From: a virus
Strand: one strand, 5' to 3'
Length of the DNA stretch: 48,563 bases
IMG/VR virus record: IMGVR_UViG_3300018432_000002
Coordinates: 64,001-112,563 of that record
Each line of letters starts with the position of its first letter. The first letter of the stretch is position 1. Below the pieces are notes generated by a model. That model was not told the origin of the DNA and did no database searches. It was given only the letters and a program-made list of their open reading frames with translations. Shown piece after piece: positions 11,142 to 46,603 of this stretch. Made by a program: the position numbers and the translations under genes.

Positions 11142-11326
11142 GCGACCCCTGCCAGTGCGGTGACTCCGGCTGTGAGGACACGTTCGGCCGTGCCACCCGA
11201 GGCCAGGACCGGTCCGGCTGCTGCCAGTACTGCGGCTATTTCGACTGTGACGTGTGCGGCTGGGCTGATCCGTCCGGCATGACCTTCACCGACTATCTGC
11301 GACGCCCGAAGGAGGCAGTGCAGTGA
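11138..11326 (+). CDS. Tiny cysteine-rich (zinc-ribbon) protein
   Basis: 62 residues with eight cysteines in the first 42: CQCGDSGC and CCQYCGYFDCDVCG. The CxxC spacing is enough for two zinc sites. It ends with the aromatic segment TFTDYLRR. GTG start overlaps the preceding stop. A nucleic-acid or protein-binding knuckle is likely; the partner is unknown. Confidence 0.7.
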   Translation: MSDPCQCGDSGCEDTFGRATRGQDRSGCCQYCGYFDCDVCGWADPSGMTFTDYLRRPKEAVQ

Positions 11327-11517
11327 GCATTCAAACCCTGACCCCGCCCGCCGACGGTTTCGACCACGACGGCAGCCTGGCCGCGTTCCTGGCGCAGGTG
11401 CCGGCTGCCCGTGACTACGACCTGGCCGAACTCGACGCGGAGCCGAAGCTGTCGCACCGCCCGCACCGCGGCGCCGACAAGCGCCGGGCCATCAACGAAT
11501 CCCTGAAGGGGGCGTAA
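11323..11517 (+). CDS. Small unrecognised protein
   Basis: 64 residues, acidic first half (FDHDGSLAAFLAQVPAARDY) and basic, histidine-containing end (KLSHRPHRGADKRRAI). GTG 11323 overlaps the zinc-ribbon gene's stop. It ends in TAA, one of few in this operon. Confidence 0.6.
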   Translation: MSIQTLTPPADGFDHDGSLAAFLAQVPAARDYDLAELDAEPKLSHRPHRGADKRRAINESLKGA

Positions 11518-11520
11518 GTC

Positions 11521-11793
11521 GTGCCGTTCGTTTTGTGTGTGGCCCGGACCGTCAACGGCGCTGAGCGCACCTTTCGCTGGCGCGGCCAGACAGATGACAT
11601 CCGCGCGGACGTGGAAGCGATGATCGCCGACTTCACTGCCGGGCGGATGCGCATGGAGAACACCTTGACTTTGTCTGCCGACTCCAGCCTCCCGAGCGGC
11701 GTGAGCTTCGGCGAACGTCCGGAAGAACCTGACTGGGCCCGGTCGTGGCGTTGGGCCGACATCAAAGACATCTGGATCGAGGAGGGGCGATGA
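11521..11793 (+). CDS. Small unrecognised protein
   Basis: 90 residues from GTG 11521, with a GGGGGCG ribosome-site candidate. Starts with strands (FVLCVARTVNGAERTFRWRG), then a helix (IRADVEAMIADFTAG), and ends in a Trp-rich acidic tail (WRWADIKDIWIEEG). Stop overlaps the 43-residue gene at 11790. Confidence 0.65.
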   Translation: MPFVLCVARTVNGAERTFRWRGQTDDIRADVEAMIADFTAGRMRMENTLTLSADSSLPSGVSFGERPEEPDWARSWRWADIKDIWIEEGR

Positions 11794-11921
11794 CCCGCCT
11801 CGACCAGCGCCGCCGCAGCAACCGCCCGACCGCCAATGTGCGGACCACTGCCGCACTGCCGAAGCCGGACGGCGTGGACCTGGTGTTCATGACCGGCCGT
11901 GGACGGGGTGTGACCCGATGA
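11790..11921 (+). CDS. Very small basic protein (43 residues)
   Basis: 43 residues, eight of them arginine in the first 20 (MTRLDQRRRSNRP), no cysteines. It is supported by GGAGG just upstream (11781-11785) and by ATGA overlaps at both ends, the pattern of its neighbours. Its charge would suit RNA or DNA contact, but no family is recognised. Confidence 0.6.
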   Translation: MTRLDQRRRSNRPTANVRTTAALPKPDGVDLVFMTGRGRGVTR

Positions 11922-12259
11922 GCGCCTGGACCGAGCGGCACGCCCCTAAGCCCGGTGACCTGTTCTACTCCCGCGACCCCGAAACCGGCGAGGTGTTCAC
12001 CGACCGCGTGTGGGTGATCGCCGAAGTCGAAGACCTGATCACGCACAGCGGTCAGCAGGTCGGCACGACCGGTCTCACCTACGGCGGACCTGTCGACCCG
12101 GACAGGCCGCTGTGGTCGGTTCAGGTGCAGTGCGACTACCGCTGCGCCGAGCTCGGCATGGGCGACTGCCCCGGCCGGCCGTACCTGCACTCTTGGTATT
12201 TGGCCGCCGATGAGTTCGTGTTGGTGACGCGCCTGTCGGAGTTCGAGGTGCAGCGATGA
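11918..12259 (+). CDS. Small unrecognised protein
   Basis: 113 residues, beta-rich (GDLFYSRDPETGEVFTDRVW, VIAEVEDLI, WSVQVQCDYRC), with three cysteines spaced CDYRC...C. It ends with a strand (EFVLVTRLSEFEV). Coupled at both ends. The composition fits a small barrel or sheet domain; no match recognised. Confidence 0.65.
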   Translation: MSAWTERHAPKPGDLFYSRDPETGEVFTDRVWVIAEVEDLITHSGQQVGTTGLTYGGPVDPDRPLWSVQVQCDYRCAELGMGDCPGRPYLHSWYLAADEFVLVTRLSEFEVQR

Positions 12260-12477
12260 CTGCCATCCCTCGCTATGTGGATCCGTGGACGTCGCCGCTG
12301 TACCTGCACGTCGGTGACCGTGCCCGCAACGAGACCGGCTTGGTCGTCGAATGGGACGGCTCCCGCGGTGTGCCGGTGTGCGAGCCGTGTGATTTGGCCA
12401 TGACGGAGTGGACGGCTACGGCCGAGCGCTGCTGCCCGCGGTGCGGTGCGACTGAGACTGAGCCGGTGGCGACGTGA
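12256..12477 (+). CDS. Small zinc-ribbon protein
   Basis: 73 residues. After an N-terminal strand region (YLHVGDRARNETGLVVEW), two CxxC pairs, CEPC and CPRC, lie 25 residues apart, enough for one Cys4 zinc ribbon. ATG 12256 overlaps the previous stop and its stop overlaps the ATG of the 37-residue ribbon gene at 12477 (TGATG). Confidence 0.68.
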   Translation: MTAIPRYVDPWTSPLYLHVGDRARNETGLVVEWDGSRGVPVCEPCDLAMTEWTATAERCCPRCGATETEPVAT

Positions 12478-12590
12478 TGGGCCTGACCGACATGCCGTGC
12501 CCGTCGTGCGGCGGACGTGACCTTGAGGCGCGTGCGGGTGGGGTTGTGTGCCGCACCTGCGGCTGGCGGATCGGGCAGGTGACCCGGTGA
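12477..12590 (+). CDS. Minimal zinc ribbon (37 residues)
   Basis: A 37-residue protein that is almost only a Cys4 ribbon: CPSCGGRDLEARAGGVVCRTCG, with the pairs 16 residues apart. This is the classic rubredoxin-knuckle layout of TFIIB/TopoI-type ribbons. Overlaps on both sides support real translation. Confidence 0.7.
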   Translation: MGLTDMPCPSCGGRDLEARAGGVVCRTCGWRIGQVTR

Positions 12591-12820
12591 GCGGCACTGG
12601 CTCTCACGTGTTCCGCCTGCCGTTCGAGTGCCCGCACTGCCGAGGGGTCAGGTGGCACCACACCCGGACGCTGGAGTGTGGCGGCACGCTACGGAACCCG
12701 CACGAGGTAGTTGAGATGGAAGCTGTCGACCCGGAAGGGCCTGACTCGCCGCCGAACACTCCGGATCTTCGCACCGGAAATGGATCAGAGCTGGCTGCGG
12801 ACAGCGGGTGGTCGTGGTGA
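12587..12820 (+). CDS. Small CxxC-containing protein
   Basis: 77 residues from GTG 12587. CPHCRG at about 15-20 and LECGG later give three cysteines; RWHHTR between them adds histidines, so a mixed Cys/His metal site is possible. The second half is acidic, Pro/Ser-rich and probably disordered. Confidence 0.65.
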   Translation: MSGTGSHVFRLPFECPHCRGVRWHHTRTLECGGTLRNPHEVVEMEAVDPEGPDSPPNTPDLRTGNGSELAADSGWSW

Positions 12821-13050
12821 GCGACTTCGTGACCTACCACGGCTCGGAAACGCTGGAGGACACGTTCCGCCGCTCAGGCGGCGACGAGTTCGGCTACCGC
12901 ATCCCCGACGAGCTGATCACCCGGTTGGAGACGTTGGACCGGGAACGGCAAGAGGCGATCGACGCGATCAAGAGGCATATCGAGCAGCACCAGCTGCCGG
13001 AGACCGACCTGGAAGCCGAAGAACCGACCGGAGAGGAGTACCCGTGGTGA
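12817..13050 (+). CDS. Small acidic helical protein
   Basis: 77 residues, with a central amphipathic helix (PDELITRLETLDRERQEAID) extending into AIKRHIEQHQL, likely a coiled coil, and an acidic tail. GTG 12817 is taken for its GTGA overlap; 12808 and 12814 are also in frame. Function unknown. Confidence 0.65.
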   Translation: MSDFVTYHGSETLEDTFRRSGGDEFGYRIPDELITRLETLDRERQEAIDAIKRHIEQHQLPETDLEAEEPTGEEYPW

Positions 13051-26517: not shown

Positions 26518-26619
26518 CTGTAGCTACAGTCGCAACTACAGGCAAGCTGTTCACTCTGCCGGATTACGCACGGCCTGTAGCTATCGCCGCAACTACAGTG
26601 AATGCGGTACTGTAGCTAC
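26518..26619. promoter_or_regulatory. Repeated operator boxes of the divergent control region
   Basis: Two 24-bp boxes share CTGTAGCTA at the left and CGCAACTACAG at the right (26518-26541 and 26575-26598), and a third half-box CTGTAGCTAC is at 26610-26619, 18 nt before the ribosome site of the ribbon-helix-helix gene. Box 1 also contains the 12-bp palindrome CTGTAGCTACAG. The repeats are AT-richer than the surroundings. Ribbon-helix-helix repressors typically bind such arrays at their own promoter. Confidence 0.7.
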
Positions 26620-26646
26620 GACAAGCGAGATCGAGAGGAGGTGAAG

Positions 26647-26865
26647 ATGACCACCACACCGGCTGAGAGCACCAAGAAGACCAACGAAACGCCAACGCGT
26701 CCCATCCGAGTCACGAAAGAACTTTGGGAGGCGTTCGGCGCGGTCGCCACGCAGCAAGGCACCAACCGAACCGCACTGATCCTCGACTACATGCGCTGGA
26801 TGACGCGCCAACCCGGCGCGAAGCTGCCGAAGCGACCAGATACGCCACCAGCCGCATCTGACTGA
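26647..26865 (+). CDS. Ribbon-helix-helix DNA-binding protein (CopG/Arc-like)
   Basis: 72 residues from ATG 26647, with GGAGGTG well placed. After a Thr/Lys-rich tail, RPIRVTKELWEAFGAVATQQ then TNRTALILDYMRWMT gives strand-helix-helix, the plan of a MetJ/Arc/CopG dimer, with the strand (PIRVTK) as the DNA-reading element. It is first in the operon with the D5 helicase and sits next to repeated boxes, so autoregulation and control of replication is the likely role (inference). Confidence 0.75.
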   Translation: MTTTPAESTKKTNETPTRPIRVTKELWEAFGAVATQQGTNRTALILDYMRWMTRQPGAKLPKRPDTPPAASD

Positions 26866-26967: not shown

Positions 26968-27306
26968 ATGGCGGAGGTTACCGCTCGAACGGCCGTGCCA
27001 TGTGATCAACCGGTTGAGTCAACCCAACTCAACCACGTTGCCGAGGCACTGCGCGGTCGAGACATGTTCGACCGCGCCCAGCTGGCGTGGCTCATGTCTG
27101 TCGCCTACCGCTGGGGCTACGAGGCGCGGGTCGACGAGGAAAACGGCGCTTGGCCACCAGGACCGATCAAGGTCGCGGGCCGATGGTACGAGCAGGCCGT
27201 CGAGCGCGAGAAGGCAGACGCTACTGCTCGCCTGTCCCGGCCCGGTGACTACCGAGGAGGCCCGGTCGAATGGGCCGAGCCTGGTGACCTTCAGGTGGCC
27301 GCGTGA
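26968..27306 (+). CDS. Small protein upstream of the helicase
   Basis: 112 residues from ATG 26968. Central helices HVAEALRGRDMFDRAQLAWL and MSVAYRWGYEARVDEENGAW, then a basic helix (GRWYEQAVEREKADATARL). Aromatic residues YRWGYE are a pattern common in small actinophage replication-region proteins. Its stop overlaps the GTG of the helicase, so it is co-translated; a replication accessory role is inference. Confidence 0.68.
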   Translation: MAEVTARTAVPCDQPVESTQLNHVAEALRGRDMFDRAQLAWLMSVAYRWGYEARVDEENGAWPPGPIKVAGRWYEQAVEREKADATARLSRPGDYRGGPVEWAEPGDLQVAA

Positions 27307-28826
27307 CCAGCATCGAATCCCCGGAGCGGGCAAGGGCGCCGATTGAGCGCGAAGACTGGCCACTCGACAACGAGACACCGGTCCTGCTGCCCCCGCCGAC
27401 TGACCCCATGGCGGTTGCGCGCGAGCTGGTGAAGTCCGCCATCACGCATGTTCAGGGACTACCGATCTGGACCTGGTGGCGGGGCGACTTCTACCAATGG
27501 GCCAAGACGCACTGGGCGATCCTGCCGGAACCCACCATCGAGCAATGGGCGTACACGGCCACCGAGGACGCCCTGTACCAGGGCGTGGACCGGAAGGGCA
27601 AGCCGATCGCTGAGCGCTGGTCGCCGACCACCGTCAAGGTGCGCAACCTGATCCACGCCCTCGGCCGCGGAGTCATCCAGCGCGACCACAGCCTCGAAGC
27701 CGAAGACGAACCCAACGCGATTGCCTGCGCCAACGGTGTCCTGACCATCGGTCAGGACCGGCTGGGCATTCACACGCCGGCCAGGTTCAACCTGTTCGCA
27801 CTGCCCTTCGCCTACGACGCGCAGGCCGTGTGCCCAAGGTGGCTGCTCTTCCTCAGTGAAGTTCTTCCCGGCGAAGACGAGCAAGACGCCGTCCTGTTCA
27901 TTCAGGAGTGGTTCGGTTACGTCGTCTCGGGTCGCACCGACCTGCACAAGATCGCGTCGTTCATCGGCGATAAGCGCTGCGGCAAGGGCACCATCGCCCG
28001 CGTGCTCGTGGGCCTGGTCGGTGCCAACTTCGTCACGGGACCGCAGCTCGGTGACCTTGCTGGAACGTTCGGCAAAGAGCCACTCATCGGCAAACGCCTC
28101 GCCGTCATGGGCGACGTCCGCTGGAACAGCAAGAGCGCCACCGACGCCGTGCCCATCCTGCTCGGCATTTCCGGCGACGACCACGGCACCGTGCACCGCA
28201 AAAACCAGAAAGCGTGGGAGGGGCGCCTCGGAGTCCGGTTCCTGCTCATGAGTAACGACGAGCCTCGGTTCACCGACGCATCCGGCGCCATGGCATCACG
28301 GATGATTCACGTCGACTTCCAGCAGTCGTTCTTCGGCCGCGAGAATCCCGGACTGACCGGTGAACTCCTGTCGGAACTGCCCGGCATCCTCAACTGGGCG
28401 CTGGAAGGGCTGGCCCGGCTCAACCGGAACGGCCGCTTCACGGTGCCCAAGTCGTCGGCGAGAGTGGACGAGCATGTGCAGCGCACCGCCTCACCGGCAA
28501 AGGCGTTCATCGAAGACAAGTGTGTGATCGAGGCGGACGCGAAGGTCAGCCTGGGTGACCTGTTCGTGGCGTGGCAGGAATGGTGCCGACACACGGGCCG
28601 CCCGGAGCTGATGGCGTCCGAGGACATGCTTTCGGCACAACTGCGGTCGGCGGTCCGCGGCAGCAACCCGAAGGTGGTTACGAAACGCCAGATGGTCAGG
28701 GGTGTCCGCACGACGTGGTTCTTCAACCTGCGACTCCGGACGGCGCTCGACGACGAGAACGCGGACGGGGAACCTGTCGCGGACACGCCAGGCAATCAGT
28801 GGCTGATCGGTGGCGGTGGCTGGTGA
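27303..28826 (+). CDS. D5-type SF3 replicative helicase (D5_N plus helicase domain)
   Basis: 507 residues. D5_N-like region about 60-200 (FYQWAKTHWAILPEP, ANGVLTIG, CPRWLLFLSEVLPGE). SF3/P4-type AAA+ helicase core follows: Walker A GDKRCGKGT (222-230), Walker B RLAVMGDVR (265-273), motif C FLLMSND (313-319), and arginine-finger region SRMIHVDF (332-339). The C-terminus (about 395-480) is a basic helical/winged region. No AEP or Toprim primase domain is present, so primase activity must come from another protein. GTG 27303 overlaps the previous stop. The iteron cluster lies immediately downstream; origin unwinding there is the likely role. Confidence 0.92.
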   Translation: MTSIESPERARAPIEREDWPLDNETPVLLPPPTDPMAVARELVKSAITHVQGLPIWTWWRGDFYQWAKTHWAILPEPTIEQWAYTATEDALYQGVDRKGKPIAERWSPTTVKVRNLIHALGRGVIQRDHSLEAEDEPNAIACANGVLTIGQDRLGIHTPARFNLFALPFAYDAQAVCPRWLLFLSEVLPGEDEQDAVLFIQEWFGYVVSGRTDLHKIASFIGDKRCGKGTIARVLVGLVGANFVTGPQLGDLAGTFGKEPLIGKRLAVMGDVRWNSKSATDAVPILLGISGDDHGTVHRKNQKAWEGRLGVRFLLMSNDEPRFTDASGAMASRMIHVDFQQSFFGRENPGLTGELLSELPGILNWALEGLARLNRNGRFTVPKSSARVDEHVQRTASPAKAFIEDKCVIEADAKVSLGDLFVAWQEWCRHTGRPELMASEDMLSAQLRSAVRGSNPKVVTKRQMVRGVRTTWFFNLRLRTALDDENADGEPVADTPGNQWLIGGGGW

Positions 28827-28837
28827 CCGCGGACGGA

Positions 28838-29123
28838 ATTGCCACCCTCCCGGGCGATTGCCACCCCGATATGCCCCATTGCCACCCTAGGGTGGCAGCG
28901 TGTTTCGGCAGCTCAGACAGCGTATTGCCACCATTGCCACCCTCATTGCCCATTAGAAGCTCATGTGCGCACACGGAAAAGTACGGAGCGCAATGGCGAA
29001 ACAGGGTGGCAGAGGGTGGCAATGGATCTCCGCAAGTTCAACCGAACAGCCTCCCACCTGCGTAAAGACCACCCTGGCCTGATTGCCACCACTCGGCTTG
29101 AGGGTGGCAATCAGGGTGGCAAA
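28838..29123. other. Iteron cluster, candidate replication origin
   Basis: The 335-nt gap 28827-29161 holds at least eleven copies of the 11-mer ATTGCCACCCT. Rightward copies start at 28838, 28857, 28878, 28924, 28933 and 29082; leftward copies start at 28889, 29003, 29013, 29101 and 29113. Five are exact (28838, 28878, 28933, 29013, 29101) and the others keep 9 or 10 bases. The left half is mainly one orientation and the right half the other. Between them lie a 10-bp palindrome TGTGCGCACA (28964-28973) and an AT-richer stretch. Directly after a D5 helicase gene, this is the layout of an iteron-controlled origin. Confidence 0.8.
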
Positions 29124-29165
29124 CCCTCGTCCCTCGATGCGCCGTTGACTTTGGAGCTCGCATGA
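29022..29165 (+). CDS. Possible 47-residue ORF inside the iteron region
   Basis: ATG 29022 opens a frame (MDLRKFNRTASHLRKDHPGL) of 47 residues whose stop overlaps the next ATG (ATGA), as for real neighbours. It reads through the right iterons (EGGNQGGKPSS), has no ribosome site other than iteron sequence, and may be fortuitous. Confidence 0.3.
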   Translation: MDLRKFNRTASHLRKDHPGLIATTRLEGGNQGGKPSSLDAPLTLELA

Positions 29166-39365: not shown

Positions 39366-40862
39366 ATGCGCACCGACCTGTACGCCCGCAAGTCCTCCAG
39401 TGACCTTGGGCGTTCCGTGGCCCGCCAGGAACGCACCTGGCGGGCCGACTGCGAGGCAGAAGGGCTCGAGCCAGGCCGCGTTTTTGTCGACCCGGACTTC
39501 TCGGCAAGCCAGTACGCCCGCAAAGACCGCCCGGACTACACCGCCCTCCTCGAACACATCCGGGCCGGCGAGACGGAGATGGTGTCGCTGTGGGAGGTGA
39601 CCCGAGGCTCCCGCCAGATGGGCGAGTGGGTGACCTTCCTCGACCTGTGCAGGGAGAAACGCGTCATGGTGCGCGTCTTCGGCGACGGCGAAGACGCGTT
39701 CACCTACCGGACATGGGTGCAGCGCGACCGCGACTCACTGATGAAGGAAGGCATTGCCGCCGAGAGTGAGGTGGAGCGGATCCGCACCCGCACCCGGGCC
39801 GGTACGGCTGACGCAGCCCACGAGGGCCGCCCACCGGGGCCGCTACTGGATGGCTACGTTCGGGAGTACGGGGCGTTGACCGGTGACAGCCTCTCACCGT
39901 CAGGCGCGAAACGTCGGGAGATCCGCCAGGTGATTGACGAGCCCAGGGCGGCTATCTACCGCGCTGCGGCGGAAGGCGTCATCAACGGTGTGCCGCTGAA
40001 CTTCATCGTGCGGGTCCTGACCGCCTGGGGAATCCCGACGGCGTCCGGGGGCAGTGTGTGGCAGGGGACCGTGATGCGCCGCATGCTCCTCAATCCTGGG
40101 ATGCAAGGGCATCGGGTGCTCGCCGGGAAGATTGTCAGGCGCGACGCCTGGCCCGCGATCTTCGACCCGGTGACGGCGGCCCGGGTGCGTGAGATCCTCA
40201 CGGAGAGCGGCCGGCGACACCGGTCCGACGGCCGGCTGAAGTACATGCTGACCGGGGCGCTGAAGTGCGGGGCGTGCCGACACCCGATGGGCAGCCGGAC
40301 GTGGAGTCAGCAGCAGTACCAGTGCGCCCAGCCGGGATGTTCCAAGGTAGCTGTTTCGATGCGGCTGGTGGAGGACGAGGTGTCTCGGCTGATCGTGGCC
40401 CGCCTGATTCAGCATGACGCGATGAGTGCACCCGCGTTCGCGGCGACCACCGATGACTCTGCCGTCCGGGCGGCGAAGGCTGAGCTTGCGGTTCTGGCCA
40501 GCCGCCGCGATGAGCTGTACCGCGAGGCGGCGAAACCGGACGGGCCGAGCTTGGCCTTGGTTGCCGCCGCAGAGCGGGAACTACTTCCCCGAATCGACGC
40601 GATGCAGGATGAGATCCGGCGCCTGACCCTGCCGCCGGTGCTGCACGACTTCGATCCGCAGGACCTCGCACGGAGATGGGATTCCGGGTATTACGCGGTG
40701 GGTGATCGCCGGGCGGTGGTGATGGGCTTGGCTGATCTGGTGTTGTCGCCGGTGGGTAAGGCGGGCCGTTGGTCGCGGTGGCGCTTGGCGGAGTCCCGCT
40801 GGCGTGGCGATGCCCTGACGTGGGGTGAGCGTTGGGGCGCCGAAGCCCGTATCGATTCCTGA
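39366..40862 (+). CDS. int: Large serine recombinase (phage integrase)
   Basis: 498 residues. Resolvase catalytic domain at about 1-150: nucleophile Ser10 in YARKSS, the conserved Arg in SVARQERTWRADCEAEG, and VSLWEVTRGSRQMGEW. The recombinase domain follows to about 290, then a zinc ribbon with C301, C304, C320, C325, and a coiled coil (VRAAKAELAVLASRRDELYR) at about 360-425. This is the full phiC31-type layout that joins attP and attB without host factors. ATG 39366 is taken; the 95-nt region before it may hold attP and the promoter. It ends directly against the stop of the convergent repressor gene. Confidence 0.95.
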   Translation: MRTDLYARKSSSDLGRSVARQERTWRADCEAEGLEPGRVFVDPDFSASQYARKDRPDYTALLEHIRAGETEMVSLWEVTRGSRQMGEWVTFLDLCREKRVMVRVFGDGEDAFTYRTWVQRDRDSLMKEGIAAESEVERIRTRTRAGTADAAHEGRPPGPLLDGYVREYGALTGDSLSPSGAKRREIRQVIDEPRAAIYRAAAEGVINGVPLNFIVRVLTAWGIPTASGGSVWQGTVMRRMLLNPGMQGHRVLAGKIVRRDAWPAIFDPVTAARVREILTESGRRHRSDGRLKYMLTGALKCGACRHPMGSRTWSQQQYQCAQPGCSKVAVSMRLVEDEVSRLIVARLIQHDAMSAPAFAATTDDSAVRAAKAELAVLASRRDELYREAAKPDGPSLALVAAAERELLPRIDAMQDEIRRLTLPPVLHDFDPQDLARRWDSGYYAVGDRRAVVMGLADLVLSPVGKAGRWSRWRLAESRWRGDALTWGERWGAEARIDS

Positions 40863-45685: not shown

Positions 45686-46603
45686 ATGTCGTTGGGAGAA
45701 CTCGCTCTTACGGAGTCTCGGACTCTGCGAGAGCAGCACATGTCCCGTACCGAGGTGCTTGACAGGGTCAAGTCTCTGACCATGCTTCCCGGCGACACCC
45801 ACGTCACTGTCGAGATGGCCGCCACCTTCTATGAGGTGTCGGTCGATGCGGTCGAGAGCCACATTCGGCGGGACCGTGACGAACTCGCAGGTGACGGGCT
45901 CGAAGTCCTCACTGGCGGCCGACTCTCCGCCTTCAAGACGGAGAGTGGCTTCCGCTCCCGCGCCGCCTCGCTGACCCTGATTCCCCGCCGTGCGCTACTT
46001 CGACTCGGAATGCTGCTCCGGGACAGCAAGGTGGCGCGGGAGGTCCGGACCCACCTGCTCAACATCGAGGCGGCTCCTGCCTCGCGGTACGACGAGCTCG
46101 ACATCAACGACCCCAACATGGTTCTGATCCTCGCGCAAGCGGCCCACAAGTCCGCCGCACTCGCGATCGAGGAGCGAAACGGGCGACTTGCCGCCGAAGC
46201 GCAGGTCGCCGAACTTGAGCCCAAGGCCGCCGCCCTCGACGCGATCGAGGCCGGCGAGGGGATGACGACCCGCGTCTACCGCAAGACCTACTTCCCTGAC
46301 ATCCCAGAGGGTGAGTTCTTCGCCCACCTGTACCGCCGCGGTTTCCTGATCAACCAGCGCGGGACCGGGACATGGGACGAGCGGCGCCAGTGCTACCGCG
46401 ACGGATCCCAGCACGGACACCCCGGCGCAGTCGGGAACGCCTACTTCTACCTCCACTCGCAGCTCGACCGGTACGAGATCCGCCGCTACCACGCGCGAGT
46501 CCGTCCCGGCCAGCCCGAGATCAAGCTTCGTGACCTGCTGATCCGGCAGGGACTCACTCCGAAGCTCATCACCGATGCCGACCTGGAAAGGACTGCCCGA
46601 TGA
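45686..46603 (+). CDS. Phage antirepressor-like protein (KilAC-type C-terminus)
   Basis: 305 residues from ATG 45686, with GGGAG upstream (an in-frame start at 45632 lies in the operator). N-terminal 37-130: MAATFYEVSVDAVESHIRRD, SLTLIPRRALLRLGMLLRDS, a DNA-binding-like domain also seen in phage regulators with a C-terminal KilAC domain. Coiled coil at 158-185, then GMTTRVYRKTYFPDIPEGEF, FAHLYRRGFLINQRG, YEIRRYHARVRPGQPEIKLR, the KilAC-type pattern. Such proteins counteract repressors or regulate early genes; this is inference from architecture. Confidence 0.78.
   Translation: MSLGELALTESRTLREQHMSRTEVLDRVKSLTMLPGDTHVTVEMAATFYEVSVDAVESHIRRDRDELAGDGLEVLTGGRLSAFKTESGFRSRAASLTLIPRRALLRLGMLLRDSKVAREVRTHLLNIEAAPASRYDELDINDPNMVLILAQAAHKSAALAIEERNGRLAAEAQVAELEPKAAALDAIEAGEGMTTRVYRKTYFPDIPEGEFFAHLYRRGFLINQRGTGTWDERRQCYRDGSQHGHPGAVGNAYFYLHSQLDRYEIRRYHARVRPGQPEIKLRDLLIRQGLTPKLITDADLERTAR

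Follow-up and report, generated by a model that had tools for sequence, protein, structure and literature searches.

Convergent iterons behind a D5/SF3 helicase gene in a virus genome: a probable replication origin of known architecture

Initiators of the D5/SF3 type abound in phages, plasmids and satellites, and few of their origins have been mapped. The alpha protein of phage P4 is an SF3 helicase whose C-terminal winged helix binds the ori repeats (also as cited in PMC4234260). SaPI replication requires the Rep helicase, the C-terminal domain of which recognises iterons located directly downstream, apparently as two hexamers, and the SaPI primase has been reported to be non-essential in vivo (PMC7581432). 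Cch2 of SCCmec belongs to the D5 class and can both bind and unwind downstream repeats of this kind; its binding survived deletion of the inverted repeats and was lost upon deletion of the direct repeats (PMC7581432). On the Streptomyces plasmid pWTY27, repB, which encodes a Prim-Pol, and repA are followed directly on the 3' side by a required 300-bp region containing five GTGGGAAC and five TTCCCAC repeats, and RepA footprints both arms of an approximately 105-bp inverted element (IR2) in double-stranded DNA, the plasmid replicating bidirectionally by the theta mode (PMC3583192). The archaeal plasmid pRN1 likewise requires a 100-bp element, which is located 3' of the AEP-SF3 gene orf904 and can restore replication when moved; no sequence-specific binding to this element was found, its authors describe it as a stem-loop, and in one case a lethal mutation of the stem was rescued once the symmetry had been re-established (PMC4234260).

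Here we analyse a repeat array in the genome of a large actinobacterial virus, an array that had been put forward, from the sequence alone, as a candidate new replication origin (the original prediction). The window, by which we mean the whole stretch of 48,563 nucleotides that was analysed, corresponds to positions 64,001-112,563 of a virus record totalling 112,563 bp, and coordinates refer to the window unless they are given as genome positions.

The array and the helicase gene in front of it

The array fills the 335-bp gap 28827-29161 on the 3' side of an SF3 (D5) helicase gene, in which a simple gene caller predicted no gene, in agreement with the earlier description of the gap as non-coding. 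A scan of the window revealed 11 copies of ATTGCCACCCT with at most two mismatches in the 286-base stretch 28838-29123 (5 exact, 3 with one mismatch and 3 with two), the first of which begins 12 bp past the end of the helicase stop codon, placing the iterons directly 3' of the gene. The same 11 copies, five of them exact and the rest matching at 9-10 of 11 positions, had been counted in the original prediction, which had also described the left copies as pointing mostly rightward and the right copies as pointing mostly leftward; the order of orientations is indeed +++-++ on the left and --+-- on the right. The features of the locus are as follows.

27303-28826, plus strand: D5/P4-family SF3 helicase, 507 aa, presumed origin-binding initiator (TIGR01613, PF08706, PF19263)
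28458-28732, plus strand: C-terminal RFX-type winged-helix domain of the helicase, residues ~386-477, presumed iteron reader
28838-28848, plus strand: iteron 1, exact, left outer
28857-28867, plus strand: iteron 2, 1 mismatch, left outer
28878-28888, plus strand: iteron 3, exact, left outer
28889-28899, minus strand: iteron 4, 2 mismatches, opposed to iteron 3
28924-28934, plus strand: iteron 5, 1 mismatch, left inner pair, 9-bp spacing
28933-28943, plus strand: iteron 6, exact, left inner pair
29003-29013, minus strand: iteron 7, 2 mismatches, right inner pair, 10-bp spacing
29013-29023, minus strand: iteron 8, exact, right inner pair
29082-29092, plus strand: iteron 9, 2 mismatches
29101-29111, minus strand: iteron 10, exact, right outer
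29113-29123, minus strand: iteron 11, 1 mismatch, right outer
28924-29023, no strand: inner dyad, 100 bp, convergent iteron pairs flanking the centre
28944-29002, no strand: centre between the inner pairs, 59 bp, presumed melting site

The centre is 47% AT, compared with approximately 34% for the region, and contains the palindrome TGTGCGCACA at 28964-28973; the palindrome and an AT-richer stretch had been pointed out before. The centre also holds an alternating purine-pyrimidine tract, ATGTGCGCACAC.

The array is specific to this place in the 112.6-kb genome. All 5 exact copies of ATTGCCACCCT lie in the gap, as do 8 of the 10 copies with at most one mismatch. An equal density of the repeat elsewhere in the element had been named as an outcome that would speak against an origin, and this objection fails because copies with at most two mismatches number 32.8 per kb within the gap as against 0.24 per kb outside, an approximately 137-fold difference. 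The array is furthermore the richest 9-mer array of the genome, and its convergent-pair geometry is found in 1 of 449 overlapping 500-bp genome windows, namely that of the array itself. Another 9-mer array, with 10 copies at genome 63.0-63.5 kb, was set aside as a candidate because it sits in a coding region (gene 98 of the gene calls). GC skew, also named in the original prediction as a test, was uninformative: the genome has no skew minimum at the array, and the origin receives no support from this side. Searches at the DNA level retrieved no match from phages and plasmids. In exact iteron searches of IMG/VR, the clusters obtained with single-strand pairs were all coding repeats, and the inverted pair had 1 match, which is unrelated and coding. 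An unrelated viral contig (L124, 5258-5340) carries three GGTGGCAATC copies together with degenerate inverted ones, the core being the same as in the window iteron.

The helicase scores above the cut-offs of TIGR01613 (primase_Cterm; 140.5 bits, cut-off 108.7) and PF08706 (30.7 bits, cut-off 22.4), also matches PF19263, and has an intact reading frame with, in the alignment, the Walker A motif GDKRCGKGT; profile scores and motif place it in the D5/P4 family of SF3 helicases. Profile searches with TIGR01613 and Pfam detected no primase domain in the 507-aa protein, which bears out what had been said of it earlier. The best Foldseek match of its AlphaFold model (pLDDT 88.8) is the SaPI5 primase-helicase 7ola (E 2.9e-16, TM 0.58-0.68), followed by AsfvPrimPol and poxvirus D5/E5, and the helicase family profile matches SaPI5 Rep with an E value of 2.5e-26. 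Over its last ~80 positions, this profile matches the DNA-binding domains of RFX5 (8zjr, E 8e-6) and RFX1 (1dp7, E 5e-4), and the helicase therefore appears to end in an RFX-type winged helix, helix and wing elements of which are visible in the C-terminal part of the AlphaFold model. Based on profile and model, it is plausible that this winged helix is the iteron reader. The half-site of the eukaryotic RFX X-box is GTTGCC, and the likeness of the iteron core TTGCC to it was retained as a hint only; the iterons of most relatives do not fit.

Helicase loci in related viruses and plasmids

Searching viral contigs with the helicase sequence alone gave no relatives. A four-sequence helicase profile run against IMG/VR yielded 213 relatives, of which 80 loci were kept, and a Micromonospora genome, a 16-kb Streptomyces plasmid and a 27-kb Pseudonocardia phage-plasmid were added as further relatives. 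Arrays of the same layout are located directly 3' of the helicase gene in the Streptomyces plasmid (L137; iteron TGTTCAGGG), in the Pseudonocardia phage-plasmid (iteron GGGCCCCGCCTGG) and in Micromonospora (iteron CTGCCCGGGTCG), the helicase of the last being 48% identical to that of the phage. The sole annotated replication gene set of the Streptomyces plasmid and of the Pseudonocardia phage-plasmid is a Prim-Pol/helicase pair. The Micromonospora strain with the closest helicase (L219) encodes, on a different contig, a terminase sharing 54% identity with that of the phage and a short product with 79% identity, and these terminase and short-gene matches hint at the host range of the phage.

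Of the 67 loci left after removal of redundancy, 32 have a significant array of at least 7 copies 3' of the helicase, compared with 5/65 at control positions just upstream and 1/66 at 1.5 kb downstream, significance having been derived from 15 shuffles per region, with single-locus calls being approximate. We also applied a strict definition of the geometry, which demands two pairs with 8-11-bp spacing that face each other 55-135 bp apart and at least 5 copies in all. Of 77 loci, 26 have this arrangement in the 500 bp that follow the helicase gene, as against 0/385 shuffles; when the whole loci of ~9 kb were searched, 26 of the 31 instances fell within 600 bp 3' of the helicase, and in control viral DNA 2 of 2041 windows contained it. 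Many relatives have alternating purine-pyrimidine tracts in their centres, as does the window. In about half of the related loci no clear array was found within 600 bp 3' of the helicase, and two loci have convergent arrays upstream of the helicase gene instead (L202, 13 copies near 2104; L215, 11 copies near 2309). Covariation of the iteron sequence with the C-terminal domain of the helicase, examined in 20 loci, was not significant (permutation p 0.19).

Dozens of viruses and plasmids have this layout behind a gene of the same type. As place and shape are kept while the letters change, a binding array that co-evolves with its own reader seems the best explanation, and with an element-specific set of iterons each initiator would stay on its own origin. 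The geometry accounts for a layout that stays while iteron sequences change.

Function of the array and alternative explanations

From the sequence and by analogy, we consider it very probable that the array is a replication origin on which the neighbouring D5/SF3 helicase acts. The support for this reading is comparative, consisting of the same place and geometry in relatives, diverged iterons, a predicted winged-helix C-terminus and equivalents tested in the laboratory, and taken together these make it well supported. We envisage that the winged helix of the helicase would read the iterons in double-stranded DNA, and that the inner pairs at 28924-28943 and 29003-29023 would seed two opposed hexamers with help from the outer iterons. 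The hexamers would melt the AT-richer 59-bp centre and then move apart, after which the host polymerase could replicate bidirectionally.

Several related elements have a Prim-Pol that is fused to the helicase or encoded before it. No Prim-Pol was found in the phage genome with PF09250, with two primase profiles or in a Pfam scan of ~70 proteins, and the ORFs upstream of the helicase (26968-27306 and 26602-26865) are small and have no primase match. The stand-alone helicase loci L150, L151 and L205 have no Prim-Pol nearby either. Because the Prim-Pol partner of related helicases was not found here, the primers are probably made by host DnaG or by an unrecognised primase, host DnaG being the simplest source.

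The genome encodes a second replication module at 11,270-12,966, in which the gene for a replication initiation protein (phrog_3926/2447) precedes that for a DnaC-like helicase loader (phrog_50, E 1.6e-36); no repeat array was found near this module. Since this module is also present, the iteron origin may not drive lytic growth; it stands as a second replicon beside the initiator/DnaC-loader module, which shows the question typical of phage-plasmids. The ends of the record share a 123-bp direct repeat, and the unit therefore either forms a circle or has terminal redundancy. A large serine recombinase (PF00239, PF07508) is encoded at 39366-40862 and a Gp3-like recombination directionality factor at genome 101-1198, and judging from these genes the element may integrate as a prophage too. 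The product of 45686-46603 weakly matches the KilAC antirepressor profile (PF03374, E 3e-5), its score falling just short of the curated cut-off.

One alternative is that the array belongs to a captured plasmid replicon, which is either silent or used for lysogen maintenance only, lytic replication starting at the initiator/DnaC-loader module. The presence of that module and the occurrence of helicase relatives in plasmids and phage-plasmids make this conceivable, although we think it somewhat improbable. The iterons are well kept (5/11 exact) and the frame and Walker motif of the helicase are intact, so that the replicon is unlikely to be dead; given the serine recombinase and the Gp3-like factor, an integrated prophage is conceivable. 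Less likely still is the model put forward for pRN1, in which the 100-bp dyad would act as a DNA cruciform or hairpin and not through iterons in double-stranded DNA. As a single strand the dyad folds well (z -5.3), the pairs to either side of the centre have the same spacing in 20/26 loci (expected 11.4, p 1.5e-4), and the rescue of the pRN1 mutant by restored symmetry (PMC4234260) points in the same direction. However, the two pairs in the window differ in spacing (9 versus 10 bp), which makes the stem imperfect, 6 loci also have unequal spacings, and the outer iterons are mostly direct repeats that lie outside the dyad. In addition, pWTY27 RepA protects both arms in double-stranded DNA (PMC3583192), and binding by Cch2 needs the direct and not the inverted repeats (PMC7581432).

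Two further explanations assign the array to other DNA-binding proteins. It could be an operator, at which a repressor regulates either the operon of the helicase or the genes that run rightward from 29162, and a gene for an Arc-like ribbon-helix-helix protein (phrog_6506, E 7e-5) indeed lies a short way upstream of the helicase, at 26602-26865; in locus L138, a helix-turn-helix regulator is present near the Prim-Pol/helicase pair. We regard this as very unlikely: the array is 3' of the helicase, 1.5 kb beyond the start of the operon, and relatives use the same place; the ribbon-helix-helix gene is unmatched in 83 related loci, while array and helicase stay together; and eleven opposed sites around a 100-bp dyad are more than a usual operator has. 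Repeat arrays bound by ribbon-helix-helix proteins are also a known form of centromere, and a partition centromere would suit an element that closes as a circle through its 123-bp end repeat. Neither ParA nor ParB was detected among the ~70 proteins scanned with Pfam, however, and in different elements, small plasmids included, the convergent geometry goes together with the helicase gene, which leaves a centromere with hardly any likelihood, even below that of an operator.

Comparison with described origins

Like the phage, SaPI Rep and SCCmec Cch2 combine a D5-family self-loading initiator helicase, a role that is predicted for the phage protein, with iterons directly downstream. The phage helicase has the same fold as the SaPI5 primase-helicase, structures 7ola and 7om0 being the best structural match of the whole model, and homology in profile and model suggests that it likewise has a C-terminal domain for binding double-stranded DNA. 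It differs in that no primase partner was found fused to it or encoded next to it, which weakens its membership in the SaPI Rep/Cch2 type only in part because the SaPI primase is reported to be non-essential in vivo. The SaPI and SCCmec elements are staphylococcal satellites and cassettes that encode a primase of the AEP or A-family polymerase type and have other iterons.

Plasmid pWTY27, which like the phage belongs to a high-GC actinobacterial host, has a RepA gene (621-2198, ~525 aa) followed, as in the phage, by a non-coding 3' region with a short repeat on both strands. The phage locus shares with it the 3' iterons in both orientations and, in its 100-bp inner dyad, a counterpart of the ~105-bp inverted element. 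The co-transcribed upstream Prim-Pol gene repB of pWTY27 was not found in the phage, and the pWTY27 iteron is GTGGGAAC. As to a possible homology of RepA with the phage helicase, the published repB primer reads AEKCIRN and the L137 Prim-Pol AEKCITN near its end, this short stretch being a hint only; an apparent pWTY27 primer match to the helicase HW motif was dropped since its position did not fit.

The pRN1 stem (NC_001771, 5084-5183) reads TGTCCA-TAG-TGTCCA facing TGGACA-CTA-TGGACA around a 58-bp centre, with 9-bp spacing, and these four copies of TGTCCA are the only ones on the plasmid. Bordetella phage BPP-1 (NC_005357.1, 26607-26711) has TTTGCCTCG twice, facing its own complement, with TACGTGTACA in the centre, ~470 bp 3' of its AEP-SF3 primase gene. 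Both share with the phage an SF3-winged-helix protein (ORF904 in pRN1) and a ~100-bp dyad 3' of its gene, and differ in having only about four copies, no outer arrays and a fused primase; from their sequences, they look like minimal forms of the same device. P4 alpha has a fused TOPRIM-type primase and was not among the nearest relatives found, and the classical iteron plasmids have a Rep_3-type initiator without a helicase domain, whereas the neighbour of the phage array is an SF3 helicase.

With a nearly even prospect of being right, we tentatively propose a single architecture for SF3/D5-type initiators of bacteria and archaea, in which two convergent ~9-bp-spaced pairs, 58-115 bp apart, would be read by an RFX-type winged helix, outer arrays being optional, the iteron element-specific and a dedicated primase dispensable; the origins of pRN1, the Bordetella phage and the phage studied here would be the same device, and the 'stem-loop' would consist of iteron pairs. 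The geometry can be recognised from sequence alone, which makes origins predictable behind many such genes, and the pRN1 stem-loop is open to a re-reading that simple mutants can probe.

Of the candidate new replication origin, the part that is well supported is an iteron origin worked by the helicase, and the part that is not supported is a new kind defined by inverted half-arrays. Inverted iteron sets directly 3' of the initiator gene were already described in pWTY27 (PMC3583192), iterons 3' of D5-type helicase genes in SaPI/SCCmec Rep systems (PMC7581432) and an inverted element of ~100 bp in pRN1 (PMC4234260). The length of the 100-bp inner dyad fits both the pWTY27 and the pRN1 elements, so that the call of an origin appears right and the inverted form is not new. 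A 'new kind' of origin is thus unsupported, and the locus is instead a good new example of a known origin architecture.
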